Part shown: in pieces, positions 6,609 through 41,721 of the stretch
Layout of the letters: every line of letters begins with the position of its first letter
Numbering within the stretch: position 1 is the first letter of the stretch
NCBI GenBank assembly: GCA_947629945.1
Contig: CANRFR010000011.1
Coordinates: 1 to 42,501, forward strand
DNA: 42,501 nucleotides
Direction: 5' to 3'
DNA from: an uncultured Clostridia bacterium
GTDB lineage: Bacteria > Bacillota > Clostridia > Oscillospirales > Ruminococcaceae
The notes under the pieces: model-generated
What the model saw: only the letters and a program-made list of their open reading frames with translations
What the model was told of the DNA's origin: nothing
The model's database searches: none
Made by a program: the position numbers and the translations under genes

Positions 6609-8471
6609 TTACTTTTTCGTTTTAACCGTTATGTTGCTGTACGCTATCGCTTTTTTGCTTGCGTTGTACGCTGTCACGCGGAACTTATAAGAGGTGTTCG
6701 CGGCGAGCTTGCTTGCAGTATAAGTAAGTACACTGTTGCTCTTGGTCTGTGTAAGCTGCGTCCATTTGTTGTTCTTCCACACGAATACCTTATAGTACTT
6801 CGCGGATGTATTTTTGCTCCACGTAAGCTTTGCGTAATTCTTTGCAGGAGCGGCTTTCAGATTAGAGATGTTCGCCAGTGTTCTTGTGGAAATATCGCTG
6901 AACGCTATCGCTTTGTTGCTTGAATTGTACGCCGTCACGCGGTACTTGTACGCGGTGTTGAGCTTGAGATTTGCCGCCGTGTAGTTTGGCGCAGTGGAGT
7001 TGTTTAACTGCTTTAACAATTGATATTTACCGTTGTTCCACACAAATACCTTGTAATATTTCGCGGACGCGTTTCTGCTCCAAGTCAATTTTACGGAATT
7101 TTTAGTGGGAGCGGCTTTCAAATTCGCGATGTTCGCTAAAGTCTTAGCGGAAACGTCAGAGAACGCTATTGCCTTATTGCTTGCATTGTACGCCGTTACT
7201 CTGAACTTGTAAGACGTGTTCGCATTAAGTTTGCTTGCGTTGCAGCTAAGTACGCTGTTGTTTACAGTTTTCGTGAGTTCTGTGTACTTGTTGTTCTTCA
7301 AAACGAATACCTTATAGTACTTCGCAGACGCGTTTCTGCTCCACGTAAGTTTTACGGTATTTTTGCTCGGAGCGGCTTTCAAGTTCGCTACATTTGCGAG
7401 GGTTTTTGTGGAGACATCGCTGAATGCTATCGCTTTGTTACTTGCATTATAAGCAGTAACTCTGAACTTGTAGGAAGTGTTCGCATTGAGTTTACTTGCA
7501 GTGTAATTAAGTACGCTGTTGCTCTTGGTCTGCGTAAGCTGTGTGTATTTGCCGTTCTTCCAGACAAACACTTTATAATATTTCGCCGCCGTGTTTTTAT
7601 TCCACGTTATTTTCGCGGTATTCTTGCTTGGAACGACTTTGAGGTTCACAATGCTGTCGAGTTTTGTTGTGACGCTTACCTCTTCCGGTATCGAACAATA
7701 ACCCTGATAATAAATCAGCGGTTCGCTAATTCCATAATTTATTGCTATTTCTTTTCCGTATGGTATAACTTTGAAATCATATTTTACACCCTTATCCAAA
7801 TTGTTAACTTTGTAGGTGGTTTTTGATGTTGTGCCGATTTTTTTCCACTTGCCATCAACACGCTGCTCTATGGAATAACGAACTATATCTTCCGGTTTAA
7901 TGGAATTGGCATTCATCGTCGCGCTGCTACTTACTTTGCCCCATTTCAACGTTACGCTGTTTTGAGTTGATGTTGCGCTTAATTTCTCCGTACATTTTAA
8001 AAAGTACGGCGGCGTGTACACATTTTTGCTGTACCAAAGTAACGCCTCGTCGCCGTTCACATTTTCATAAAAGCCATCGCAGCCGAATACCTCTGAGTTC
8101 ATAAGGAATATTTTTACGGTATAATCCCTTTCGCTCAAATTATAAACCGGAATTGTAATTTCATTGCTTTTTACGAGATAACCCTTGCTGTTGCCCATTC
8201 TCGCTTGAAACCGCACCCAATACCACCCGTTCGGATTTACATCGTTCCAAGTTATTTTCATATCATAACTGTTTTCACTGTCCGCAGGTTCGACATATTC
8301 TATATTAACCTTCGGATTAGCAAATGTATTATTTTTAACGATTATCTCCTCGCTGTCCGAAACGGAAGATTGCATTCTCTCGGTGGTCTCCTCCGCGCTC
8401 GAAACAAACGTCACCAAACTTGCCGTCATCGCCGCCGCCAAAAAAACAGAAAGAATTTTTTTCAGTTTCAT
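6609..8471 (-). CDS. Secreted protein with fibronectin type III repeats
   Basis: The 620-residue protein has a signal peptide (MKLKKILSVFLAAAMTASLV, cleavage near SSA-EE). A unique N-terminal part of about 155 residues resembles an immunoglobulin-like or FN3-like fold. One diverged FN3 domain follows (about 160-265), then four closely similar FN3 repeats of about 88 residues to the C-terminus. Each has KYYKVFVWKNGK, then a TAxxLxxNTxYKxRVTAYN core and an AFSD strand. No catalytic domain, sortase signal or anchor is seen, so it is probably secreted or loosely wall-bound. FN3 arrays commonly act as spacers or adhesion modules. Its 3' half is nearly identical to that of the next gene upstream. 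The start has an AGGAGG ribosome site. Confidence 0.85.
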   Translation of the reverse strand: MKLKKILSVFLAAAMTASLVTFVSSAEETTERMQSSVSDSEEIIVKNNTFANPKVNIEYVEPADSENSYDMKITWNDVNPNGWYWVRFQARMGNSKGYLVKSNEITIPVYNLSERDYTVKIFLMNSEVFGCDGFYENVNGDEALLWYSKNVYTPPYFLKCTEKLSATSTQNSVTLKWGKVSSSATMNANSIKPEDIVRYSIEQRVDGKWKKIGTTSKTTYKVNNLDKGVKYDFKVIPYGKEIAINYGISEPLIYYQGYCSIPEEVSVTTKLDSIVNLKVVPSKNTAKITWNKNTAAKYYKVFVWKNGKYTQLTQTKSNSVLNYTASKLNANTSYKFRVTAYNASNKAIAFSDVSTKTLANVANLKAAPSKNTVKLTWSRNASAKYYKVFVLKNNKYTELTKTVNNSVLSCNASKLNANTSYKFRVTAYNASNKAIAFSDVSAKTLANIANLKAAPTKNSVKLTWSRNASAKYYKVFVWNNGKYQLLKQLNNSTAPNYTAANLKLNTAYKYRVTAYNSSNKAIAFSDISTRTLANISNLKAAPAKNYAKLTWSKNTSAKYYKVFVWKNNKWTQLTQTKSNSVLTYTASKLAANTSYKFRVTAYNASKKAIAYSNITVKTKK

Positions 8472-8618: not shown

Positions 8619-11600
8619 TTACTTTTTAGTTTTAACCGTTATATCGCTAAACGCTATAACTTTGCTGCTTGCATTATAAGCTGTCACGCGGAACTTATAA
8701 GAGGTGTTTGCGGTGAGCTTGCTTGCAGTATAAGTAAGTACACTGTTGCTCTTGGTCTGTGTAAGCTGCGTCCACTTGTTGTTCTTCCACACGAATACCT
8801 TGTAGTACTTCGCGGATGTATTTTTGCTCCACGTAAGCTTTACGGAATTCTTCGCGGGAACGGCTTTCAGATTAGAAATGTTCGCCAATGTTCTTGTGGA
8901 AATATCGCTGAACGCTATCGCTTTGTTGCTTGTGTTGTACGCCGTCACGCGGTACTTGTACGCTGTGTTGAGCTTGAGATTTGCCGCCGTGTAGTTTGGC
9001 GCGGTGGAGTTGTTTAACTGCTTTAACAATTGGTATTTGCCGTTGTTCCACACGAATACCTTGTAATATTTCGCGGACGCGTTTCTGCTCCATGTAAGTT
9101 TTACGGAATTTTTAGTGGGAGCAGCTTTCAAATTCGCGATGTTCGCCAAGGTTCTTGTGGAAATATCGCTGAACGCTATCGCTTTGTTGCTTGAATTGTA
9201 CGCCGTCACGCGGTACTTGTACGCGGTATTCACGGTGAGATTGCTTGCCGTATAGTTAACCACGCTGTTATTAGCGGTTTGTGTAAGCTGCGTCCACTTG
9301 TTGTTCTTCCACACGAATACCTTGTAGTACTTCGCGGATGTGTTTTTGCTCCAAGTAATTTTCGCGTTGTTTTTGCTCGGTGCGACTTTCAAATCTGCGA
9401 TCTTTCCGCACTTAGTTTTGACCGTGATATCGGAATACGCTATTGCCGTATTACTCTTATTATACGCAGTTACTCGGAACTTGTAAGAAGTATTCGCTTG
9501 CAAACCCGTTTTATTGTAAGACAAAACACTGTTGTTCTTAGTTTGTATCAGCTTCGTCCACTTACTGTTTTGCCAAATCCATACTTTGTAGAAGCTTGCT
9601 GAGGTGTTTTTGCACCATGTAAGCTTTATGCTGCTGTTTGTTGGTGCAGCTTTTAAATCCTTGATTTTTTGATGATAATTATAATGGATGGTTGAATACT
9701 CCAACCCCCAGTTGCCGTAATTAATTGTAACTTTACCCCACTGGGCTTTAGAACCAGTGTAATATATATCTTTAAGATTTACAAAAATGTCAAACGCTTT
9801 CTCGCCAATTGACGTAACGCTGCTTGGTATCGTTATCCGGGTAAGGCTTGAACATTCGCTAAAAGCACGATCCCCAATACGCGTAACTTTTTTACCATTT
9901 ACTGTTGATAGAATAGTGGCTTTCACCAAATTTTGATCAACGGGACCATAAACCTCCGCCGTGCCGTCGTCAAATGCCATATACTCTAAATTACCTACGG
10001 TAATTTTTTCTTTCTGCGTCTTTAAAGTAATATCGGAATACGCGATTTCTGTATTTCCTTTATATGCGCTTACACGAAACTTATAAGAAGTATCGGGATT
10101 AAGTTTTTCCAGAGTGTAATTGAACTTTGTACCACCCTTTATCTCTGCAATTTTATACCGATATCCATTGTGCAAAAGCCATATGTAATAGGAATCCGCA
10201 TTCGCAAATTTGCTCCACTTAAACTTGACCAACCTAATTCCCGGCGTTGCTTGTAGATTTGCGATCTTCCCGATTTTTGTATTTGATGTTATGTCACTGT
10301 AAGCTATTGCTTTGTTACTTTTATTATAAGCAGTTACGCGGAATTCGTACGAGGTATTCGGAACGAGTTTTGTTGCTGTGTATGTTAAAATTGTGTTATT
10401 CTTGGTTTTAGTAAGCTCTGTCCACTTGCTGTTTTTCCAAATAAATACTTTGTAATAGCTTACTAAAGCATTTTTGTTCCACGAAAGCTTTATGCTGTTT
10501 TCTTTCGAAGTTGCCTTTAAATTTGCAATTTCTCCAACTTTGGTCTTTATCGTAATATCAGAATGTGCAATCGCAGTGTTTTTCTTATTGTATGCCGAAA
10601 GACGTAACTTATATGAGGTGTTTGAAGCCAGATTCGTTATATTGTATGACAAGGTTTGGCTATCCTTGGTTTGATAAAGAAAAGTCCACTTATTGTCTTT
10701 CCAAATCCACACCTTATAACATTTCGCCGGGTAATATATATCCCATTCAAGCGACACGCTGTCAGATGTAACATCGCTCGCCGAAAATCCGCTTAAAACG
10801 ACCGGCGGTAATTCAAGATGCTTCGCATTGTAATAAAAGTCGGCGTTTAAAAGAGCATCGTTATATCGTTGAACCGAAATACTATCCCAATTCTCTTGGG
10901 AGCCGGTATAATAAACGCTTTTTAAGCTTATGCAATTTAAAAAAGCGTATTGTTTTATTTCTGAAACACCCGGCAAACGAATAGCGCGGAGGCTATAGCA
11001 ATTTGAAAATGTTCCGCTTTCAATATTTCTTATATAATGTGGCAATTCAATGCTTTCCAAAGACAAGCAACCGGTAAACGCGAAATCGCCAATCACGGTA
11101 ATATTATCGGGCAAGCTTATTTTAGTTAAAGAGGTGCAGTTTGCAAACGCATACCAATCTATTTGTGTCACCGCACTGCTGATGTCAATTTCCTCAAGAT
11201 AGGAGCAGTCCTGAAATGCGCCGTATCTTATCGCATTGGAGTAAGAAACATCGACAAATTTTGTTGCTTTTTTTGCCGGAGGATACTTTTCAACCCAAGC
11301 AAGCATGTTATCTTTTGAATTATACCTATACAGCACACCGTCAACTGCTTTGTACCATAGCGCGGTAGAATCGGTTGTAAAGTTTTCCAATGATTTACAT
11401 CCAACAAATGCGCCTTCTTGAATTTCTTCCACACTATTTGGTATATGCATTGTTTTAATATTCGTACAATATTCAAATGCATATTCTTCAATACATTTTA
11501 AGCCTTTGGGAAGCGTCAAAGCTTCAAGAGAACAGCAATTCATAAATGCATTTTTTTCTATTTTTTTTAGTGTTTTAGGTAAGGATATGCTTTTTAGTGA

Positions 11601-13834: not shown

Positions 13835-13974
13835 TTTATTCACCTTCTTTCTTAATCCTACAAAGTATCAGCGAAATGTTAAGCAACAGTGTGCGTTTTT
13901 TCGGATGTTCCTTTCAATCCGCGTTACATTTATATTCCGCTTTAATCGGCGTAGTCAGCGTTACGCGGCATAAC

Positions 13975-14002
13975 TGTCAATTGTCAACTTTACATTGTCA
14001 AC
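13975..14002. repeat. Heptad repeat array at the tpiA 3' end
   Basis: Four 7-bp units in tandem on the plus strand: TGTCAAT, TGTCAAC, TTTACAT, TGTCAAC. The array ends 5 bp from the tpiA stop codon. A weak palindrome (GCGTA 13949-13953 with TACGC 13962-13966) lies just beyond. It belongs to the dispersed family also seen at 16774, 23854/23940 and 41632/41701. Confidence 0.8.
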
Positions 14003-14007
14003 TGATA

Positions 14008-14797: not shown

Positions 14798-16063
14798 TCA
14801 ATTTCGGGAATAACCCGAATTATTTTGTAGATTTTTCGCTTTTTTGATACCCGTGATAAATCTTAACGGGGCTATTCTCTTGCAAATTTCGTACAGCCCG
14901 ACGGTAACGGCGAAGCTAACGACCGCTATCAAAAAGAACTGTATTAAATCAGCGCAATTTATCTTTACGATAAAGAACGCAGCCGCCGCAAGCACCGTCT
15001 GATGAAGCCGGTATATAGGAAAACAAGCGGGAGAAAAATAATCCGTAAACCCGTTTTTGAAATCCAAGAACTTAGGGAAGCACTGATTAAATCGGATGTG
15101 CACAGCTTGCTTGCATATTTTCCGTTATCTTGCACAAATTCTCCTTGGCGGGCGTCAGCCCGCCGGCGTCGAATTTGTACAATCTAACGAAAAATCTGCG
15201 CACCCCGATTTAATCAGCACTTCCTTAGCTCCGATCGCTGTCGCTCCCAGAACGCCCGTCCACTCCAAGGCTCTGAAATCGAGATACCAAAAAAGCACGC
15301 TTTCAATGCCGACATTCCGCATTACGCAGCGGAATATCATCATCGCAAGCCATAAGCCGCCGAGCAATATCCAATTGCGCTTCAGCTTTTCAATTACTTT
15401 GTCGTCGGTAAACAAAAAGAAGCCCAACAGAAAACATATCGCAAATTCAAGAACTCCTTTTCCGCCGACATTCGCGACAAGACCGCCCGCGCAAAGCAGT
15501 ACAAAGCCGCCGATTATCAGTAACACAACGGGATTTTTCGACAACTCCGGTTTTTTATCCCTCTTAACGTACCAAACGTTCAGGGGCAGGAACACCAGCG
15601 AAATCACAAACAAAAACAGTATAAACCATAAGTGCCCCGGCGTGAACCCGCCGTCATATCCCGTAAGGTCGGTAAACTTGGTGAAGAAAACCGAATAGAG
15701 TCTGAAAAATCCGCCCCGATAATCGTTGTAAAAAACGTCCGCTATAAAGCTCTGTATCGGTATCCAAAGCAGCAGCCCGCTCACAAACGGAACAAGCAGT
15801 CTTAAGACGCGCTCCTTTGCGTATTGGGCGGCGGTTCGCTTTTTCAGAGCGAAAAACGACGACGCTCCCGCCAACGCAAACAGCAAGGACATCCACCACG
15901 GATACACCGAGAGATCGATATATTGAAGCGCGGGTATCTCGCCGCCGTAAACGTAAAAGCCGTAATAGCCGCCCGACAGGAAGCACATTGACGCGTGAAA
16001 CGGAAACAACATCAAGATACATAATATCCTGAGATTGTCTATGAAATACTTTCTTTTTTCCAT
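14798..16063 (-). pseudogene. Acyltransferase 3 family membrane protein, interrupted by a MITE
   Basis: The N-terminal part (MEKRKYFIDNLRILCILMLFPFH onward) has the family's start with His in the first helix, and about eight to ten hydrophobic helices follow. The frame runs into the MITE at 15225 and stops at 15155. The C-terminal part (KFLDFKNGFTDYFSPACFPIYRLHQTVL to the stop at 14798) lies on the other side. Removing the element and one TA (153 bp) joins GATAIGA directly to KFLDFKNGF in frame, giving 370 residues, the normal length. Such proteins O-acylate surface glycans. ATG 16063 is preferred because AGGAGG stands just before it, although the spacing is tight. In-frame restart inside the element at 15103 could make a C-terminal fragment, but the enzyme is probably inactive. 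Confidence 0.9.
15075..15225. mobile_element. 151-bp MITE inserted in the acyltransferase gene
   Basis: The ends are inverted repeats of about 21 bp: GGGAAGCACTGATTAAATCGG on the left and its near-complement ending CAGCACTTCCT on the right. TA is duplicated at 15073-15074 and 15226-15227 (the duplication can also be read as TTA). Inside, GCACAAATTC pairs with GAATTTGTAC, and the centre is a 7-bp hairpin, GGCGGGC (15147-15153) with GCCCGCC (15158-15164). It has no transposase and must be mobilised in trans, probably by an IS5- or IS630-type enzyme (inferred from ends and TA target). Confidence 0.9.
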
Positions 16064-16090: not shown

Positions 16091-16714
16091 TCAATATCCG
16101 CCCGTCAGCTCCGAATAGCTGAAATATTCGTCGTCGTCAAGTTCAAGAGTTCGGTCGACATAATATTCAAGCCAGTCAATAAAGTGCATAGCCTTTCCGC
16201 TAAAAGGATTGATAAGCGGAAATATACCCGCGTCGTCGGCAAGGTCGTAAAACCATACCGTGCCGTAGGTTTCCTTGTCTTCGGCGTTCACTATCAAAAT
16301 GCTGTACATACCGCAGCCCTCGTCACAAAGCTCGATAAATCCCGAATTCACATAACACGCATCTAATAATCTATCATATTCTTCATCGGAGAGCTCCGCA
16401 ATATTTAGCGGCTTTTTCAGCGTATAGGGGAACTTGGCTTTAACGTTGGCAATAAGTCCGCCTTTCCGTTTGCCATCATCAATACTGCGCAATCCGTAAA
16501 AGGGCTGGGTACCGCCTTTTGAGACGGTGGTTATAAACCGCCTGTAATCCTCGGGCAGACTTATTCCGCTACGAACCTCAAAATCCCGCACTTTCTCCTC
16601 CGAAAGCGGCTCTTTCCACTTAGGGGGAAATTCTCCGCACGTATCTTTCGGGTGTTTAGCCGAAAGTTTTTCCATCTTCGCCATTATATCGGATATGCGC
16701 TTATTGATGTCCAC
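16091..16714 (-). CDS. SMI1/KNR4 (SUKH superfamily) protein
   Basis: The 207-residue soluble protein carries the SUKH signature around residues 38-75: EEKVRDFEVRSGISLPEDYR, then RFITTVSKGG with the following FYGLRSIDD. Later segments GCGMYSILIVNAEDKETYGTVWFYDLADD and FIDWLEYYVDRTLE fit the family's closing strands and helix. SUKH proteins are often immunity proteins against secreted nuclease toxins, but many are orphan housekeeping regulators. No toxin gene is adjacent. The start is GTG 16714 with GGATGGTG upstream. It lies between pgk and the acyltransferase, apparently in the same transcript. Confidence 0.85.
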   Translation of the reverse strand: MDINKRISDIMAKMEKLSAKHPKDTCGEFPPKWKEPLSEEKVRDFEVRSGISLPEDYRRFITTVSKGGTQPFYGLRSIDDGKRKGGLIANVKAKFPYTLKKPLNIAELSDEEYDRLLDACYVNSGFIELCDEGCGMYSILIVNAEDKETYGTVWFYDLADDAGIFPLINPFSGKAMHFIDWLEYYVDRTLELDDDEYFSYSELTGGY

Positions 16715-16773
16715 GTTATTTCACCATCCATATCACAAAAATGTACCGCCGCAGCGCGGCGGCACACCATAAC

Positions 16774-16801
16774 TGTCAATTGTCAACTGTACATTGTCAA
16801 T
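16774..16801. repeat. Heptad repeat array at the pgk 3' end
   Basis: Four tandem 7-bp units: TGTCAAT, TGTCAAC, TGTACAT, TGTCAAT. The array ends 2 bp from the pgk stop codon. A GC-rich hairpin, CCGCCGC (16746-16752) with GCGGCGG (16756-16762), adjoins it and may serve as a 3' end structure for pgk. Confidence 0.85.
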
Positions 16802-16803
16802 TG

Positions 16804-18024
16804 TTACTTGTCTTGGATAGCGTCGATTCCGGGAAGTCCCTTGCCCTCAAGGTACTCAAGAGAAGCGCCGCCGCCCGTGGAGATGTGGCTCATCTTGTCC
16901 GCGAAGCCGAGCTGTACAACAGCCGCCGCAGAATCGCCGCCGCCGATAATCGTAGTAGCGTCAGCCTCTGCCATTCCCTTTGCAACTGCGATAGTACCCT
17001 TTGCAAGAATGGGATTCTCAAATACGCCCATAGGACCGTTCCAAACCACGGTCTTAGCGCTCTTAACCTCGTTTGCGAACAGCTCCATAGTCTTGGGACC
17101 GATATCAAGACCTTCCATATCTGCGGGTATCTTGTCGCTGTCAACGGTAGAAACCTCGATAGGAGCGTCAATCGGGTCGGGGAAGCCCGCCGCTATAGTC
17201 GTGTCAATCGGGAGCAAAAGCTTCTTGCCGTTCTTCTCTGCTTTCGCAATCATTTCCTTGCAGTAGTCAATCTTCTCATCGTCAACGAGCGACTTGCCGA
17301 CTTCCTTGCCCTGCGCCTTAAGGAACGTGTAAGCCATACCGCCGCCGATAATGAGCGTATCGCACTTTTCAAGCAAATTGCTGATAACGTTCAGCTTATC
17401 CGCTACCTTAGCGCCGCCCAGCACAGCAACAAACGGACGTGTCGGGTTCTCAACGGCGTTGCCGAGGAACTCGATCTCTTTATTCATCAAATAACCTACG
17501 GCGGTCTCCTTAACAAACTTTGTTACGCCGACCGTAGAAGCGTGCGCTCTGTGAGAAGAACCGAAAGCGTCCATTACGAAAACTTCGCCGTTTACGAGAT
17601 CTGCAAGTTCCTTTGCAAAGCCCTCGCCGTTCTTGGTCTCGTCAGCGCCGCGGAAACGTGTGTTCTCGAGAACTACTATTTCTCCCTCGCCCATAGCCGC
17701 AACAGCCTTTTTAGCATTTTCGCCAACAACGTTATCATCGGGAGCGAAAGTTACCTTAGCTTTAACCAGTTCCGCAAGTCTGTCTGCGGCGGGCTTCAAA
17801 GAGAACTTAGCCTCGGGACCGTTCTTCGGCTTGCCGAGGTGCGAGCATAGCACTACCTTAGCGCCGTTTTCCGTGAGCTTGTTTATCGTGGGCAGAGCCG
17901 CTGTGATACGGTTATCGTTGGTGATCTTGCCGTCTTTAAGCGGTACGTTGAAGTCAACGCGCACCAAAACGTGCTTGCCCTTTACGTTCAAATCTTCGAC
18001 ATTCTTCTTATTAAGCTTAGCCAT
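16804..18024 (-). CDS. pgk: Phosphoglycerate kinase
   Basis: The enzyme transfers phosphate from 1,3-bisphosphoglycerate to ADP. ATG 18024 ([12 protein letters not shown]) is chosen over the longer frame at 18081 because AAAGGAA precedes it and the product is then 406 residues, normal for Pgk. Substrate-binding [29 protein letters not shown], the hinge region with [11 protein letters not shown], and nucleotide-binding [11 protein letters not shown] and [14 protein letters not shown] are all present. It is the first gene of the glycolytic cluster here. No gap gene is adjacent in the window. Confidence 0.97.
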
Positions 18025-23345: not shown

Positions 23346-23831
23346 TCATTCAATTCTCATAAGCTTTTGATCGTACTCTACAGCGTCGCCGTTGTTTACA
23401 TAAATCTCGGCGACCTTGCCCGAGAACTCGCTGTTTATCTCGTTCATCAGCTTCATACTCTCGATAATGCACACAACGTCGCCCGCGTTCACCGTGTCGC
23501 CGAGTTTAACGAAGCTCGGCTTTTCGGGACTGGGCGAACTGTAAAATGTTCCTATTATCGGACTGGTTATATAATTTCCTTTTTCGGGAGATTCCGCCGG
23601 CTTTTCCGCGGAAATTCCCGGCGCCGCCGCGGAAGCCGCGCCCATTGCGGGAGGCATTACTCCGATCGGAGGCGGAGGCGGCGCGGCTTTTTTCGCGCCG
23701 ATCTCAATATCAATATCCTCGGTGCTGATCTTAATGATCCCAAGGTCGTTCTCTTTCAGTATACGCGCCAATTCCTCAACGCACTCAATAGTATCCTCGA
23801 TCTGGCGAGGTCCTTTATCCTTTAATGTCAT
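23346..23831 (-). CDS. accB: Biotin carboxyl carrier protein
   Basis: The 161-residue protein carries biotin on K127 in the motif IIESMKLMNEI (usually AMKM/EAMKLMN). A Pro/Ala-rich linker around residues 48-85 joins an N-terminal helical part to the C-terminal lipoyl-like domain (about 87-161). The ribosome site is GGGGGAG. It is placed between fabF and fabZ, the usual order in clostridial clusters. Confidence 0.96.
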   Translation of the reverse strand: MTLKDKGPRQIEDTIECVEELARILKENDLGIIKISTEDIDIEIGAKKAAPPPPPIGVMPPAMGAASAAAPGISAEKPAESPEKGNYITSPIIGTFYSSPSPEKPSFVKLGDTVNAGDVVCIIESMKLMNEINSEFSGKVAEIYVNNGDAVEYDQKLMRIE

Positions 23832-23853: not shown

Positions 23854-23888
23854 ATTTACAATGTAAAATTGAAAATTGGCAATTAACG
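23854..23888. repeat. Heptad repeat array, inverted orientation, left side of the fabF-accB element
   Basis: Five 7-bp units read ATTTACA, ATGTAAA, ATTGAAA, ATTGGCA, ATTAACG, the complement orientation of the TGTCAAY type. A GC-rich palindrome of the form GTGCGCGC-TTC-GCGCG follows at about 23888-23903. With the array at 23940-23967 it makes an element of about 114 bp with inverted arms in the fabF-accB gap. Confidence 0.75.
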
Positions 23889-23939
23889 TGCGCGCTTCGC
23901 GCGTAATTTTAATAACCCTCCGCAAACGGCAACCTTAAC

Positions 23940-23967
23940 TGTCAACTGTCCATTGTCAATTGCCAAC
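23940..23967. repeat. Heptad repeat array overlapping the fabF 3' end
   Basis: Four 7-bp units: TGTCAAC, TGTCCAT, TGTCAAT, TGCCAAC. The fabF stop codon (23956-23958) and the codons for its last residues VGN fall inside the array. Confidence 0.82.
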
Positions 23968-32327: not shown

Positions 32328-35300
32328 TCACTTCTTTTTACGCTTGCCTGTCGCCGCCAGCATTATAAGAGCCGCTCCCGATACTACAAAGCCCGCGCTT
32401 GAGACCACAACGCCCGTTTCGGGGTTGACCGACGAGCCTTCACGTTTTGCGGAAAGCGCTTTCTTTGTAACCACAAAAGTCTTGGATTCGTCCGCCGTAA
32501 AGAACACTTTTCCGTCCTTGACCGTGGAACCAGTCTTGCTGTATTTTCCGTCCTCCAGTTCGTAGACTTGAACGGAACTACTGTCTTTATAATCCTCTGG
32601 CAGCGGTACTTGCACGGTTACGCCGCTGTCGGCAGTCACGGTTTCGCCGTTTTTGTCGACCATTGCGATATCCATGGCTATCCCGCCGCTGCCGGTAGAG
32701 TTGTTCGGCTTGACAACGGTTTTAGTGCCGCCGGGCAAATTGCCGTTCTGCGCGTAGATCTTCACTGCCGACAAAGTTTCGGCATATTCCGAATCGCCGT
32801 CCGCAATCTTATTCGAGGGCGTATACATATTTAAATATTCCTGTACGGCGTCCTCGTTCTTTGCTATTATCGATTTGTCATCGACAATGATAAAGTTCTG
32901 CGCGGCTATTTTGTAGTTTTCCGTGGAGTTCGGCTTATATACGAACACCAACGTGTTAACCTCGTTCTTAGCAATTCCGTCGAACGCGGAGGGTTCAAGC
33001 GTTATTTGCGTTGAACCGTGCAGTCTTTTGTAATCATCGGAGCCGCGTTTCAGCTTAACTCCGTTCAGCCAAAGGTCGCTGAATTCACTGCACTCGCCGT
33101 TCAGTAAAACAAACTGCTTTTCAAATGTTTCCTCTGTCGAAACGTAGTATGCGCGCCCGTCAATAGCCTCACCAAGCGGCTTTAAAAATCCGTAATTGGG
33201 GTCGGTTATCAGCTTTAAGTTTTTCTCGGTGTTGTTTGATATCGAAAGAGATACTTTACGCACCGTCTGCGCGGTATCTGAATTTTCGTCTCCGTTTCGT
33301 ATTATGTTCGCCGCGATCTCAAAATCAAATGTACCCGCGACGGTCGGAGAGCCGCTCAGTCTGCCGCTTTGCGAATCAAGCTCCAGACCCTCGGGCAATT
33401 CGCCTATTACCGAGAACTTCGCGGAAAGCCACGGATAATCGCGGTCAAGCGAAAACTCACTCCAATACGGAACATATTTCATTGCAATACCGAAACTGTC
33501 GCGCTCAACGACACGCGCACAGCCCGAATGTCCGCTAAGTTCGATGAGAAGCGGCTCGGCATTGTCGGCTTTTACGACAAGTCTGCCGGAAATGTCACCG
33601 AAAGCCAACTCGTCGTTAATGTCCTTGACCGCGCTCAGCACTATCTTTACGCCGCCGTCGTACAATTCCGTACCCGCGAGAACAACGTTCTCCGCGCCGA
33701 CAAGCTCCGCGTCAAATCCTTTGGAAGCGCCTTTAACATTTATCTCAAAGCTGTCGCCGCTTATGTTATCAAAGAATATCTCAGCCGAGCCGCCGCAGTC
33801 CGCAGTAAGTTCTATTGGAGCCGTAACGGCGGGCTTGCTTGCGGGTCTTTTTATGGGTTTGCTTGCGGGTTTGCTTTCCGTAGGTTCACTTGATGTGTTG
33901 CTTTCCGTAGGTTCACTTGATGTGTTGCTTTCCGTAAGCTCACTCGAAGTGTCGCTTTCTGTAGGCTCACTCGAAATATCGCTTTCCGTAGGCTCACTCG
34001 ACATATCGCTTTCTATAGGTTCACTTGTAGTATCGCTTTCCGTAGGCTCACTCGAAGTGTCGCTTTCTATAGGCTCACTCGAAGTGTCGCTTTCTATAGG
34101 TTCACTTGTAGTATCGCTTTCTGTAGGTTCACTTGATGTATCGCTTTCTGTAGGCTCACTCGAATTGTCGCTTTCTGTAAGCTCACTCGAAATGTCGCTT
34201 TCCGTAGGCTCACTCGAAATGTCGCTTTCTATAGGCTCACTTGTTGTGTTGCTTTCTGTAGGTTCACTTGATGTGTCGCTTTCAACAGGCTCTGATTGAG
34301 CAGATTCAACATTTACAAACAAATGCACCACGAACGCCGCCGAATCTTTGTTCACCAATTCGGGAACAGAACTCGGCTCGATAAACAGGGTGAACTCCGC
34401 GCCGCCCTCTGTGGCAGTCTTAAAACCGTCTCCGAAAAGCTCGGCTTTGATATCCTCGGCATTGTCATTTTCGGCGTCGAAAGCCGATTCGTAACGTCCA
34501 AGTACCGCTTTTGTGATGTCGCTTTCCGAAAGTTCCCTCTCGGCAAACTTCAGACTTAACTTGTCAAGCTTAACACTGTGCTCCGTATCCGCAGAATCCG
34601 TCTTGAACAGTACGCTTATCTCCGCTTGATCCGCACTGTCGGACGTTAAAGGGAACGCTCCGTCAAAGGTCGCCGATGAGCCGCCGTCAGGGTCGAGCCG
34701 TGCCGAAAGCACAAACTCTTCACGAAGAGCGGTAACGGTAAAGCCCTTTAACTCGGCAACGACATTTTCGTCCTTATCAAGTGCGCGGACGTCTATAGTC
34801 ATCTTGCCATCGGTCAAGATATGCTCGTCTTTGGCGTTTTCGCCGTAATATTTTACTTCCGTCGTTACATCGTCACGGTTAAGCATACGCGGCGACGCTT
34901 TAAGATAAACGTTTCTGCCCTCCTCAATCGGACTGTTTATTGTAAAGTCACAGGCATTTAAACGTATCTCGTTCACTGCGGAGCGCAAATAAGCTTTCTT
35001 GTCGTTCGCACCGACAGTGTAAAACTCAAACTCGTCAAACGACCAACAATTCTTTGTTATCTTGAATTTTGTGCTATAAATTTTGTTGTTCGGATCGTCA
35101 AACTCCGCACTGCCAACCGTCACGGTCTTTTCGACCGTGTAATGATCCTCGGGGGTCTCAACAAAAAGATCGACAGCCGCGTCCTTATCGGAAAGCGGGA
35201 ATTTCTCCTCCCCTATCCATATATACTCGGCGTCCGAGTCAATTTCGACCTTTTCGCCTTTTATATGTATCGGTTTAGGCAGATCGTCCGTGTTTTCCGA

Positions 35301-35819
35301 CACTCCGATCTCGACTTTCGCCTCGGAGCCACTGTCCGATGATTTACCATCGTCGGCGCTTTCGGAAGCAATCGGCTCACTGTTTTCAAGAGCACCGGGG
35401 TCGCTGCTTTCGGGAGCGACAGGCTCACTATTTTCAAGAACATTGGGTTCGCTGCTTTCGGGAGCGACTGGCTCGCTGTTTTCAAGAACATCGGGTTCGC
35501 TGCTCTCGGGAGCGACAGGCTCACTATTTTCAAGAACATCGGGGTCGCTGTTTTCGGGAGCGACAGACTCACTGTTTTCGGGAATAACGTGGTCGTCATT
35601 CTCATAAACATCGTAAGCGTACATCATATTGTCAAGGATAGCTTCAAGCGGGATCTTTTTCGCATATTCATCGGTAACTCCGTTAAGCTCCACCGAAACG
35701 TCTACGGGACCCGCGGGTATTTCCGAGGAAAACGCCGTAACGCTTTTTATAAAAGAAGCTGCCGAAGCCATCATAACACAGGTCGCCGCTGCCGCCGCGA
35801 CAGTCTTTTTAAATCGCAT
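32328..35819 (-). CDS. Large surface protein with SEPxES repeats and NPETG sortase-type signal
   Basis: The 1163-residue protein has a signal peptide (MRFKKTVAAAAATCVMMASAASFI). A first Ser/Glu/Pro repeat region uses 16-residue units of the ENSEPVAPESSEPDVL type (about residues 78-155). About 350 residues of beta-rich sequence follow. A second array of 16 units of nine residues (SEPTESDTS type, about 509-652) comes next. The C-terminal part has an Ig-like segment ending LPEGLELDSQSGRLSGSPTVAGTFDFEI (a putative He_PIG-like domain). The tail NPETG, a hydrophobic helix and KRKKK is a sortase sorting signal. The protein is therefore probably covalently attached to the wall. Start ATG has the AAGGAG ribosome site. 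No enzyme domain is seen. Confidence 0.85.
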   Translation of the reverse strand: MRFKKTVAAAAATCVMMASAASFIKSVTAFSSEIPAGPVDVSVELNGVTDEYAKKIPLEAILDNMMYAYDVYENDDHVIPENSESVAPENSDPDVLENSEPVAPESSEPDVLENSEPVAPESSEPNVLENSEPVAPESSDPGALENSEPIASESADDGKSSDSGSEAKVEIGVSENTDDLPKPIHIKGEKVEIDSDAEYIWIGEEKFPLSDKDAAVDLFVETPEDHYTVEKTVTVGSAEFDDPNNKIYSTKFKITKNCWSFDEFEFYTVGANDKKAYLRSAVNEIRLNACDFTINSPIEEGRNVYLKASPRMLNRDDVTTEVKYYGENAKDEHILTDGKMTIDVRALDKDENVVAELKGFTVTALREEFVLSARLDPDGGSSATFDGAFPLTSDSADQAEISVLFKTDSADTEHSVKLDKLSLKFAERELSESDITKAVLGRYESAFDAENDNAEDIKAELFGDGFKTATEGGAEFTLFIEPSSVPELVNKDSAAFVVHLFVNVESAQSEPVESDTSSEPTESNTTSEPIESDISSEPTESDISSELTESDNSSEPTESDTSSEPTESDTTSEPIESDTSSEPIESDTSSEPTESDTTSEPIESDMSSEPTESDISSEPTESDTSSELTESNTSSEPTESNTSSEPTESKPASKPIKRPASKPAVTAPIELTADCGGSAEIFFDNISGDSFEINVKGASKGFDAELVGAENVVLAGTELYDGGVKIVLSAVKDINDELAFGDISGRLVVKADNAEPLLIELSGHSGCARVVERDSFGIAMKYVPYWSEFSLDRDYPWLSAKFSVIGELPEGLELDSQSGRLSGSPTVAGTFDFEIAANIIRNGDENSDTAQTVRKVSLSISNNTEKNLKLITDPNYGFLKPLGEAIDGRAYYVSTEETFEKQFVLLNGECSEFSDLWLNGVKLKRGSDDYKRLHGSTQITLEPSAFDGIAKNEVNTLVFVYKPNSTENYKIAAQNFIIVDDKSIIAKNEDAVQEYLNMYTPSNKIADGDSEYAETLSAVKIYAQNGNLPGGTKTVVKPNNSTGSGGIAMDIAMVDKNGETVTADSGVTVQVPLPEDYKDSSSVQVYELEDGKYSKTGSTVKDGKVFFTADESKTFVVTKKALSAKREGSSVNPETGVVVSSAGFVVSGAALIMLAATGKRKKK
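33864..34295 (-). repeat. 27-bp tandem repeat array within the surface protein gene
   Basis: Sixteen imperfect 27-bp units (9 codons, SEPTESDTS type) lie head to tail with no unique spacers. The repeated composition also leaves a long open frame on the opposite strand (33544-34299), which is a by-product. Confidence 0.95.
35365..35590 (-). repeat. 48-bp tandem repeats within the surface protein gene
   Basis: About four and a half copies of a 48-bp unit coding ENSEPVAPESSEPDVL-type sequence. Boundaries are approximate. Such arrays change copy number easily. Confidence 0.85.
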
Positions 35820-40390: not shown

Positions 40391-41647
40391 ATGAAACCGA
40401 TAGTCAGAAACCTTAAGGACGTTTACCCGGCTGCCCAGACCGAGTCGCAGCTTCAGCGCTACAGAGCCGCCGAGATCGGCTTTGCCGAACATTTCGGAGA
40501 ACTCGGTGCACACCGATTTTTCTCAGCACCCGGGCGTACGGAGATCTGTGGCAACCACACCGATCACAACAACGGCAAAGTGTTCGCGGCAAGCGTCGAT
40601 CTCGACGTTATCGCGGTGGTTGAGCAGACCGACGACGGTTTTGTAACAATAAAATCCGACGGCTTCCCCGAAGACAAAATTGATATTAACGACCTCGATG
40701 TTCACGAGGACGAGAAAAACACCTCCGCGTCACTGATACGCGGAGTTCTTAAAGGATTTCGGAAAAACGGACACAAAATAGGTTCATTCCGCGCCTACAC
40801 CACCTCCACGGTAATGAAAGGCTCGGGACTTTCAAGCTCCGCGGCGTTTGAAGTGCTTTTGGGCACGATACTTACACATTTATACAACGGAGGGCAGATT
40901 TCTCCCGTAAAGATCGCACAGATATCGCAGTTCGCCGAAAACGTCTATTTCGGCAAGGCTTCGGGGCTGATGGATCAAATGGCGTGCGCCTATGGCGGTT
41001 TTGTGGCTATCGATTTTAAAGATAACGACATTCCCGTTATTGAAAACATCCAATGCGATTTTGAAAAATACAAACACGCCCTCTGTATTGTAGATACAAA
41101 GGGCGACCACGCCGACCTGTCGGACGAGTACTCGGCTATCCCCAACGAGATGAAAGCAGTCGCGCGCTTTTTCGACTGCGAAACGCTGCGTTCTCTTTCA
41201 CTCGACGACATAATGCTGAACATCAATATTTTGCGCGATAAATTCGGCGACCGCGCCGTGCTCCGCGCCATTCACTTCTTCCACGAAAACGAGCGCGTGG
41301 AAAAGGTAGTCCACGCGCTTAAACACGAAGAATTCGATAACTTCCTGCTGTCCGTCAAGGAAAGCGGCGACAGCTCGTTTAAATATTTGCAGAACATCTA
41401 TGCGAACAGCGACATTAAACATCAGTGCCTGTCTGTAGGTCTCAACATCGCGGAAAGTACGCTGCACCGCAAAGGCGCGTGCCGAGTTCACGGCGGCGGA
41501 TTTGCCGGAACTATTCAAGCGTTCGTGCCGTTTGAAGCGCTAAAGCAATTCCGTATGAATATGGAGAAAGTGTTCGGCATAGGGTCATGCCACGTTCTTT
41601 CAATACGTAATGTAGGCGGCTGCGAAGTTTTAATTGATAATGCATAA
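40391..41647 (+). CDS. galK: Galactokinase
   Basis: The 418-residue GHMP kinase phosphorylates galactose at C1. The galactokinase signature GRTEICGNHTDHNNG is at residues 48-62, the ATP loop is MKGSGLSSSAAFEV, and the third GHMP motif is HGGGFAGTIQAF. Catalytic Asp is probably in SGLMDQMACAYGG. The ribosome site GGAGG precedes the ATG. galT and galE are not in the window. Its last residues LIDNA and stop lie in an inverted heptad array. A small palindrome (ACCTT-GTTT-AAGGT, 40351-40364) lies upstream of the start. Confidence 0.94.
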   Translation: MKPIVRNLKDVYPAAQTESQLQRYRAAEIGFAEHFGELGAHRFFSAPGRTEICGNHTDHNNGKVFAASVDLDVIAVVEQTDDGFVTIKSDGFPEDKIDINDLDVHEDEKNTSASLIRGVLKGFRKNGHKIGSFRAYTTSTVMKGSGLSSSAAFEVLLGTILTHLYNGGQISPVKIAQISQFAENVYFGKASGLMDQMACAYGGFVAIDFKDNDIPVIENIQCDFEKYKHALCIVDTKGDHADLSDEYSAIPNEMKAVARFFDCETLRSLSLDDIMLNINILRDKFGDRAVLRAIHFFHENERVEKVVHALKHEEFDNFLLSVKESGDSSFKYLQNIYANSDIKHQCLSVGLNIAESTLHRKGACRVHGGGFAGTIQAFVPFEALKQFRMNMEKVFGIGSCHVLSIRNVGGCEVLIDNA

Positions 41648-41721
41648 TTAATTTTTGCGGAAATAAATGCGCCGCAAAGCGGCGCACCTTAATTATACAC
41701 TGTACATTGTCAATTGTCCAA
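41632..41721. repeat. Inverted heptad element shared by the galK and hflX 3' ends
   Basis: Left arm units read ATTGATA, ATGCATA, ATTAATT; right arm units read TGTACAT (41701-41707), TGTCAAT (41708-41714) and TGTCCAA (41715-41721). Between them is the hairpin GCGCCGC-AAA-GCGGCGC (41669-41685). The last codons of both convergent genes lie in the arms. Confidence 0.78.
41668..41686. terminator. GC-rich hairpin between galK and hflX
   Basis: An 8-bp stem including the outer T-A pair (TGCGCCGC with GCGGCGCA) and an AAA loop, between two convergent genes. It may end both transcripts, but only a weak T-run follows in either direction. Confidence 0.55.

Follow-up and report, generated by a model that had tools for sequence, protein, structure and literature searches.

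The short tandemly repeated repetitive sequences (STRRs) of heterocystous cyanobacteria are short tandem 7-bp repeats in intergenic DNA, while the enterobacterial repetitive intergenic consensus (ERIC), repetitive extragenic palindromic (REP) and REP doublet (REPIN) families are palindromic repeats that lie in operon gaps and carry no genes of their own. To our knowledge, STRRs have been described without fixed-register inverted ends, and we know of no heptad arms in ERIC, REP or REPIN sequences. Here we describe 7-bp-periodic arrays in the genome of an uncultured Clostridia bacterium of the Ruminococcaceae (assembly GCA_947629945.1), among them one at positions 13973-14007 of contig CANRFR010000011.1; the 42,501 nucleotides of this contig that were analysed are referred to as the window. 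We propose that the arrays are probably the ends of non-autonomous mobile elements that resemble miniature inverted-repeat transposable elements (MITEs) and that would be moved in trans by a putative enzyme. The likeness to cyanobacterial STRRs drawn in an initial annotation of the window extends to position and period, but not to the nearly fixed length and register of the arrays described here. Like ERIC, REP and REPIN sequences the elements are palindromic and occupy operon gaps, but the REP-associated tyrosine transposase (RAYT) family was not found in this genome.

Heptameric intercistronic repeats are already known, and the account that follows is taken from portions of three published texts. 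GGGAATC and GGGGA(C/T)T repeats of Xanthomonas and Nostoc have a similar gene-relative placement, with 70 and 75 inverted pairs of the GGGAATC repeats in two Xanthomonas genomes, 83% of these repeats sharing their context between the two genomes, and generally no link to mobile elements (Rehm et al. 2015; PMC4692102). Their unit sequence differs from the present one and forms a G-quadruplex, whereas the sites described here mostly lack an array in congeners, the unit number is nearly fixed, and cores have been copied. TAACTGA direct repeats occur in marine Beggiatoaceae, Cyanobacteria and Bacteroidetes, mostly oriented toward the start codon, although one Bacteroidetes genome has a set directly after the stop codon and reversed (MacGregor 2015; PMC4679880). 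In that work the stop codons in three frames were already noted and translational regulation was proposed; a single inverted repeat was present in 170 sets of the Guaymas genome, where sets have 2-6 units, with up to 43 elsewhere. The unit has the same AAYTGNN form as ours (TAACTGA rotated is AACTGAT), but no presence/absence or core-copying result was met in the portion of that paper available. TAACTGA was also reported in Thiomargarita, outside the repeat consensus sequences of its authors (Flood et al. 2016; PMC4853749). As in the MITEs treated in the available part of the latter paper, the present elements are short, lack an open reading frame (ORF), have inverted terminal repeats, are dispersed, and combine several cores with common ends; they differ in that the ends consist of a 7-bp periodic motif, no consistent target-site duplication was seen, and no parent element was found in the stretches sampled. 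With heptameric intercistronic repeats they share a tandem 7-bp intergenic unit and a co-directional position with stop/start polarity, the latter failing in a set of 39 loci from other bacteria (below). We found no report of heptad-ended mobile elements, or of this architecture, in the literature searched, which was largely without subscription papers.

The window array had been read as a TGTCAAY-type array at 13975-14002, and sequence reading bears this out with the slightly larger extent given above. A two-unit search with ATTGTCAATTGTCAA, allowing up to three mismatches, returned 16 matches in the window where 1.23 would be expected, a number reached by none of 100 shuffles. The genome (2.75 Mb in 206 contigs, 97.75% complete) was then scanned with a position weight matrix (PWM) over 1,016,306 bp, or 37% of its length, a non-random sample of longer contigs that includes contigs previously known to carry arrays. 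In the first 709,988 bp, scanned on both strands with a few arrays called on both, 46 arrays scored at least 20 and 48 at least 18, with none in a single order-3 Markov realisation at either threshold; lower thresholds gave 51 against 3 (score 16) and 59 against 9 (score 14). Removal of overlaps left 58 arrays in the whole sample, so that the arrays are genome-wide. The two outcomes it had named as refuting, absence of arrays elsewhere in the genome and a random distribution relative to genes, were not observed. The exact 13-mer TGTCAATTGTCAA matches this genome 34 times and each of 24 congeners 0-5 times.

Unit number is not freely variable, as it is in simple sequence repeats: 33 arrays have five units, 16 have four, three have six, three have three, and one each has two, seven and eight, so that 49 of 58 have four or five. 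When the units of the four- and five-unit arrays are counted from the core, AC occupies positions 6-7 in 28 of 49 third units, as opposed to 8, 11 and 4 of 49 at units 1, 2 and 4 (chi-square p 1e-7). Because the third unit is position-specific, the end is a fixed sequence that has a 7-bp period within it, rather than a run of interchangeable units. At position 2, most units have C or T, and 27 of 54 arrays are uniform in this respect where 7.0 would be expected; the two arms of a pair agree in base type at this position (rho 0.82, n = 18, p 4e-5).

Twenty adjacent array pairs lay within 320 bp of each other, of which 18 were minus-plus, two minus-minus and none plus-minus. Thus 36 of the 58 arrays form 18 inverted pairs, all pointing outward, and constitute terminal inverted repeats of the kind found in MITEs, with an outward heptad consensus of approximately AAYTGTCAAYTGTCAAYTGTACATTGTCAAYTG. 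A pair together with its core makes an element of 91-238 bp, and the 22 arrays outside such pairs make up the single-array elements among a total of 40. Perfect hairpins (stem of at least 6, G+C of at least 60%, within 50 nt of the array end) were present near the inner end of 13 of 58 arrays, including 5 of the 22 single arrays, near the outer end of none of the 58, and in 3.5% of random 50-mers. The GC-rich palindrome that had been described beside each array is therefore enriched on the inner side, yet it accompanies a minority of arrays at this stringency, and the one at tpiA is imperfect. Folded as RNA, the 18 pairs (91-238 nt) had z scores from -1.6 to -11.7.

Sites without the element in close relatives, a further trait of MITEs, were found in most comparisons. 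Fifteen elements were sought at the matching gene junction in congeners; the pgk element was not comparable, and the other 14 yielded 116 element-by-genome cases. An array score of at least 14 was obtained in three of these (C8:41530 in congeners G018 and G024, C9:1972 in G024), and 12 of the 14 elements had no array in any congener compared. At the tpiA site, 19 congeners with both flanks had no array (best score 12.4), and direct alignment of C8:36578 with G024 likewise showed none. The intervals are correspondingly longer here: approximately 103 bp between the flanks of C8:37427, against 14 bp in G024 and -1 in G006; approximately 165 bp at C2:22254, against 18-26 in four of six congeners; and 182-194 bp at C27:12812, against 15-26 in six of seven. 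The gene upstream of the last element (topoisomerase I by Pfam) ends in LDK and a stop at the junction, whereas in G014 and G024 it continues for 3 to 7 codons. Near-identical copies dispersed over several loci, also typical of MITEs, were found as well. The cores of C27:10576 and C27:12840, which are oppositely oriented, share 97% identity across 101 bp; the core of C2:33548 matches both at 96-100% over 54-56 bp. A second core type with the same kind of ends is represented by 77 identical bp at three contig ends, one of them approximately 170 bp before a tRNA cluster. On these sequence comparisons, mobility of the elements appears well supported.

Within the window, Pfam placed tpiA (TIM), pgk (PGK), fabF (ketoacyl-synt) and galK above curated cut-offs; the identity of hflX, of which the window holds a part, is weaker (HflX_C 26.1 bits, cut-off 26.4; MMR_HSR1 23.7, cut-off 21.9). 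No Rfam family reached its gathering score against the window. Arrays were found at the ends of all five genes, as originally noted, and the two cases said to have inverted arrays on both sides are the fabF and galK-hflX elements. The features are as follows.

13973..14007, plus strand: single array at tpiA (ACTGTCA ATTGTCA ACTTTAC ATTGTCA ACTGATA), its outward end abutting the stop codon of tpiA.
16742..16766, no strand: GC-rich hairpin containing CCGCCGCAGCGCGGCGG, on the inner side of the pgk array, with TTTTTGTG next in the sense direction.
16772..16806, plus strand: single array at pgk (ACTGTCA ATTGTCA ACTGTAC ATTGTCA ATTGTTA), its outward end abutting the stop codon of pgk.
23856..23883, minus strand: left arm of the fabF element (ATTGCCA ATTTTCA ATTTTAC ATTGTAA, outward), 20-24 nt before the start of the gene at 23346-23831.
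23884..23937, no strand: core of the fabF element with the GCGCGCTTCGCGCG hairpin (sequence reading, RNA fold).
23938..23965, plus strand: right arm of the fabF element, with the fabF stop codon inside the array and the protein ending ...KPVGN.
41631..41653, minus strand: degenerate left arm of the galK-hflX element (TAATTGATAATGCATAATTAATT), inside which galK ends (...VLIDNA); its PWM score of 13.5 is under the count threshold.
41654..41691, no strand: core of the galK-hflX element with the GCGCCGCAAAGCGGCGC hairpin (sequence reading, hairpin scan).
41692..41719, plus strand: right arm of the galK-hflX element (ATTATAC ACTGTAC ATTGTCA ATTGTCC), with the hflX ORF end within, between convergent genes.

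Placement relative to genes was examined with gene calls from our own ORF script. One of the 40 elements lay at a contig edge; among the 39 that could be classified, 35 were between co-directional genes, one was between divergent genes, and three were inside called ORFs, one of which (41692) is actually between convergent genes. The junctions that hold elements include L2-S19, S13-L36, S5-L30 and trpB-trpA (trpB by its PALP domain and position). After removal of the element the residual gap was at most 35 bp in 14 of 17 pairs; gaps of this size make up 4.7% of bases and 40% of gaps above zero, and, counted by bases, elements were strongly enriched in short gaps (15 of 36, p 3e-11). Placement is directional in this genome: the outward end is found against a stop codon or, in most cases, 9-30 nt ahead of the next start, positions that the inward end seldom takes. 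In the inward reading, 44 of 54 arrays close two or three frames by stops inside 28 nt (14% at random), as opposed to one of 54 in the outward reading. Stops inside arrays are therefore expected, and for this reason only ORF stops lying wholly before the array were counted, in bins. For comparison, loci of other bacteria were chosen by an exact ATTGTCA triplet, which gave at least 119 stretches in which the unit sequence is fixed by this selection. Eighty of the 119 were grouped from record titles; the stop count was made on 71 of these, and the nine of mixed phyla and the other 39 were counted separately. Each line gives the number of arrays and then three counts of stops: those 1-10 nt ahead of the outer end, those in the 10 nt before that, and those at the inner end.

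This genome: 56 arrays; 9, 1, 1.
Bacteroidota: 85 arrays; 11, 1, 3.
Cyanobacteria: 21 arrays; 3, 1, 1.
Other Firmicutes: 26 arrays; 5, 2, 0.
Class members chosen by the TAC register: 10 arrays; 2, 0, 0.
Congener G023: 12 arrays; 3, 1, 0.
Further 39 loci of mixed origin: 71 arrays; 5, 0, 7.
Nine loci of other phyla: 10 arrays; 1, 2, 0.

The first six sets together have 33 stops per 210 arrays just before the outer end, 6 in the preceding 10 nt and 5 at the inner end, and all eight (291 arrays) have 39, 8 and 12; a true boundary one unit beyond the called end could account for part of the peak. The preference for 3' ends, which was to be checked against stop codons, is thus real in this genome, and directional clustering was found in six sets, while the 39-locus set has no polarity.

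Beyond this genome, a register-specific 23-mer was found in 7 of 391 genomes of the class, from several families, with no match for the reversed control. Eight places from other genomes of the class included two inverted pairs, one of them between tRNA-Gly and tRNA-Arg genes, and three arrays that by eye start one base after a stop codon. Among the matches listed, three units in a row occurred in Bacteroidales, Cyanobacteria, Firmicutes, Planctomycetota and others, and neighbours within 320 bp in 80 of the 119 loci were 20 minus-plus, one plus-minus, five minus-minus and two plus-plus. Culturable carriers encountered include Anabaena UHCC 0204, Bacteroides stercorirosoris DSM 26884 and Parabacteroides massiliensis. 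Outward pairing and stop-codon polarity are seen in most, not all, sets of other bacteria. The TAC register was also found in five IMG/VR contigs. The viral stretch L427, a phage tail module by its genes (baseplate, endolysin, tape measure, XkdN-like), carries three elements, and two of these share 92% identity across 118 bp; because heptad DNA supplies their ends, proteins encoded there terminate in ...LTVDN, ...SLDN and ...LIDN. The large subunit of the terminase in L426 also ends in an array. Among named phages the L427 piece partly matched one record, and among named plasmids one element partly matched two. On one of these plasmids, from Parabacteroides distasonis, the match starts four bases after the end of a coding sequence, in a 54-bp gap between two co-directional genes, and the last PWM unit overlaps the stop. 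As separate observations, a HicA/HicB pair lies on the opposite strand within the L427 tail module (L427:7913-8942) with heptad-ended elements on both sides, like a composite transposon, and an IMG/VR contig of 66% GC carries an inverted pair of 22 and 17 heptads (L425:858-1152) together with several other pairs, some inside an ORF.

In the explanation that we favour, a complete copy would consist of approximately 4.5 heptads, a core and approximately 4.5 heptads, the heptads being inverted and pointing outward, and the core often having GC hairpins next to the heptads and a middle part that varies. A transposase-like enzyme would move the elements and read the heptads; different cores with the same kind of ends are as expected if a trans-acting enzyme recognises the ends. 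A single array may be a solo end or what is left of a copy that has lost its second end by decay. Copies would settle mostly between co-directional genes, with the outer end at the upstream stop and the other side just before the next ribosome-binding site. An insertion near a gene end would close the gene at once through the inward stop codons, and insertions deeper in genes would be lost by selection. The location at gene ends is thus probably due in part to the stop codons in two or three frames that an inward-read array carries; between-gene placement would partly reflect genome layout and selection, with immediate stops making gene-end insertions harmless. The small mobile unit suggested in the initial annotation accordingly finds support as to mobility, in empty congener sites, near-identical cores and phage copies, while it may or may not target 3' ends, since there is no per-gap enrichment and one set has no polarity. 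An effect on mRNA stability, and with it the 3' end protection named in the initial annotation, would be possible; the pairs fold readily.

Several results weigh against this explanation. Congener spacers often fail to align with the flanks, so that the insertions are not clean, and older rearrangement may have occurred at the compared sites; some copies are inherited, because three comparisons show an array in a relative. At junctions read by eye, with element ends not defined to the base, no consistent target-site duplication was seen. Homogeneity at position 2 is also expected from unit duplication by slippage, and arm identity within pairs is only weakly above that between pairs (p 0.06). 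Co-directional gaps constitute 806 of 951 gaps (85%) by number and 65% of intergenic bases, which makes 35 of 39 a modest excess by number and a strong one only by bases, and the enrichment in short gaps disappears per gap (p 0.90). The 39-locus set has fewer stops at the outer end than at the inner end, and its neighbours are 9 minus-plus, 6 plus-plus and 2 plus-minus. Nor was an autonomous copy or a mobilising enzyme encountered: neighbouring minus-plus arrays 320-8000 bp apart, as would flank a gene between outward arrays, were absent from the sampled stretches; the Y1 transposase family PF01797 had no member in this genome; and neither did PDDEXK_2 (PF12784), which is present in 12 of 25 genomes.

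The PDDEXK_2 (Rpn) family had been considered as a mover in view of a remark on Thiomargarita MITEs in the available part of PMC4853749 and of an array at L429:13821-13848, immediately beyond a PDDEXK_2 (Rpn-type) gene; it was rejected for this genome because of that absence.

Other explanations have to be set beside mobile ends. Slippage could have grown STRR-like heptad repeats in place at intergenic sites, with pairing by template switching between arms. As related in the available text of PMC4679880, a survey reported heptanucleotide repeats to be the commonest long simple repeats in the majority of its genomes, with a proposal of slippage; arrays homogeneous for C or T at position 2, long arrays elsewhere (in L425 22 and 17 units, at other loci as many as 16) and sets with little polarity point the same way. 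Slippage predicts neither the near-constant four or five units nor a position-specific third unit, however, and does not accommodate arms and near-identical cores copied to different loci or the outward direction of 18 of 18 opposite-strand neighbours in this genome. Length, register and copied cores rule it out as the sole cause, while the homogeneity within arrays leaves room for a contribution, and overall we regard slippage as unlikely. The elements could instead be functional RNA punctuation, that is, intercistronic stem-loops kept by selection because they stabilise polycistronic mRNA or direct its processing. They do fill gaps between co-directional genes, the 18 pairs fold as described, and in the available part of PMC10311766 processing is controlled by intercistronic stem-loops in Ruminiclostridium. 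Against this, an arm-arm stem is impossible in the 22 single-array elements, and no conserved function at the site is indicated, since arrays are absent in nearly all congeners compared. Such a role, which is compatible with mobility and does not exclude it, seems somewhat unlikely as the explanation.

The termination role mentioned initially is disfavoured and in our judgement highly unlikely: inner-side GC hairpins are enriched, and TTTTTGTG after the pgk hairpin is the longest T-run among seven elements that combine hairpin and T-run in the sense direction, but the other 33 of 40 lack this hallmark of an intrinsic terminator, 35 of the 39 classified elements have co-directional genes on both sides, and strong termination between one-direction ribosomal-protein genes or between trpB and trpA would be polar. 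The inward-read unit contains TTGACA, present in 51 of 58 arrays, so that arrays might be tandem -35 boxes acting as promoters or sigma decoys. At 16-18 bp spacing, -10 matches of at least 5/6 occurred in 5 of 51 (1.8 expected) and of at least 4/6 in 23 (11.7 expected), but the excess is small, no -10 is perfect (0 of 51), and the control of random genome positions would be exceeded by AT-rich surroundings regardless; a promoter function is very unlikely. The bipartite inverted structure, the GC hairpins and the occurrence of singlets and doublets recall REP and REPIN sequences, which would imply movement by RAYT (Y1 transposase). As PF01797 is missing here, and the four of 25 genomes that have it (G006, G008, G015 and G020) all have no match to the 13-mer TGTCAATTGTCAA, we consider this extremely improbable.

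Taken more broadly, the outward stop polarity in Bacteroidota, Cyanobacteria, other Firmicutes and phage genes might reflect a single class of mobile DNA, spread across phyla and settling at translation stops, of which STRRs, TAACTGA and GGGAATC repeats would be ends or remains. Its members would share an undescribed kind of movement in which both the 7-bp period and the gene end are read, possibly via mRNA or translation termination. We offer this extension as a speculation that is rather doubtful at present.

Some further repeats and genes were also noted. Another dispersed palindromic repeat of 157 bp (window 15072-15228), with ends like AGGAAGTGCTGATTAAATCGG and many copies in the genome and congeners, overlaps the end of an acyltransferase gene. 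A third dispersed repeat of approximately 144 bp lies in a ribosomal-protein region (L055:19568-19711, equivalent to C8 39568-39711) and was met again in four other sampled stretches, one of which holds two copies. A SUKH (SMI1/KNR4) family gene (Pfam; window 16091-16714) stands between the acyltransferase gene and pgk, where the closest congener has approximately 63 bp between flanking matches. Long tandem repeats of 27/54/81, 24/48 and 261 bp occur in large ORFs (window 33871-34283, 35358-35583, 6636-7640 and 8641-9362).

Heptad repeats break draft assemblies, and protein C-termini such as ...LTVDN can come from heptad elements. As far as the available portions of PMC4679880 and PMC4692102 go, work on heptameric repeats has discussed slippage, regulation or quadruplex formation without settling on an origin. 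If the arrays are mobile ends at stop codons, at least in this bacterium, the puzzle of the heptads would become testable by strain comparison and transposition assays, and would point to an enzyme.
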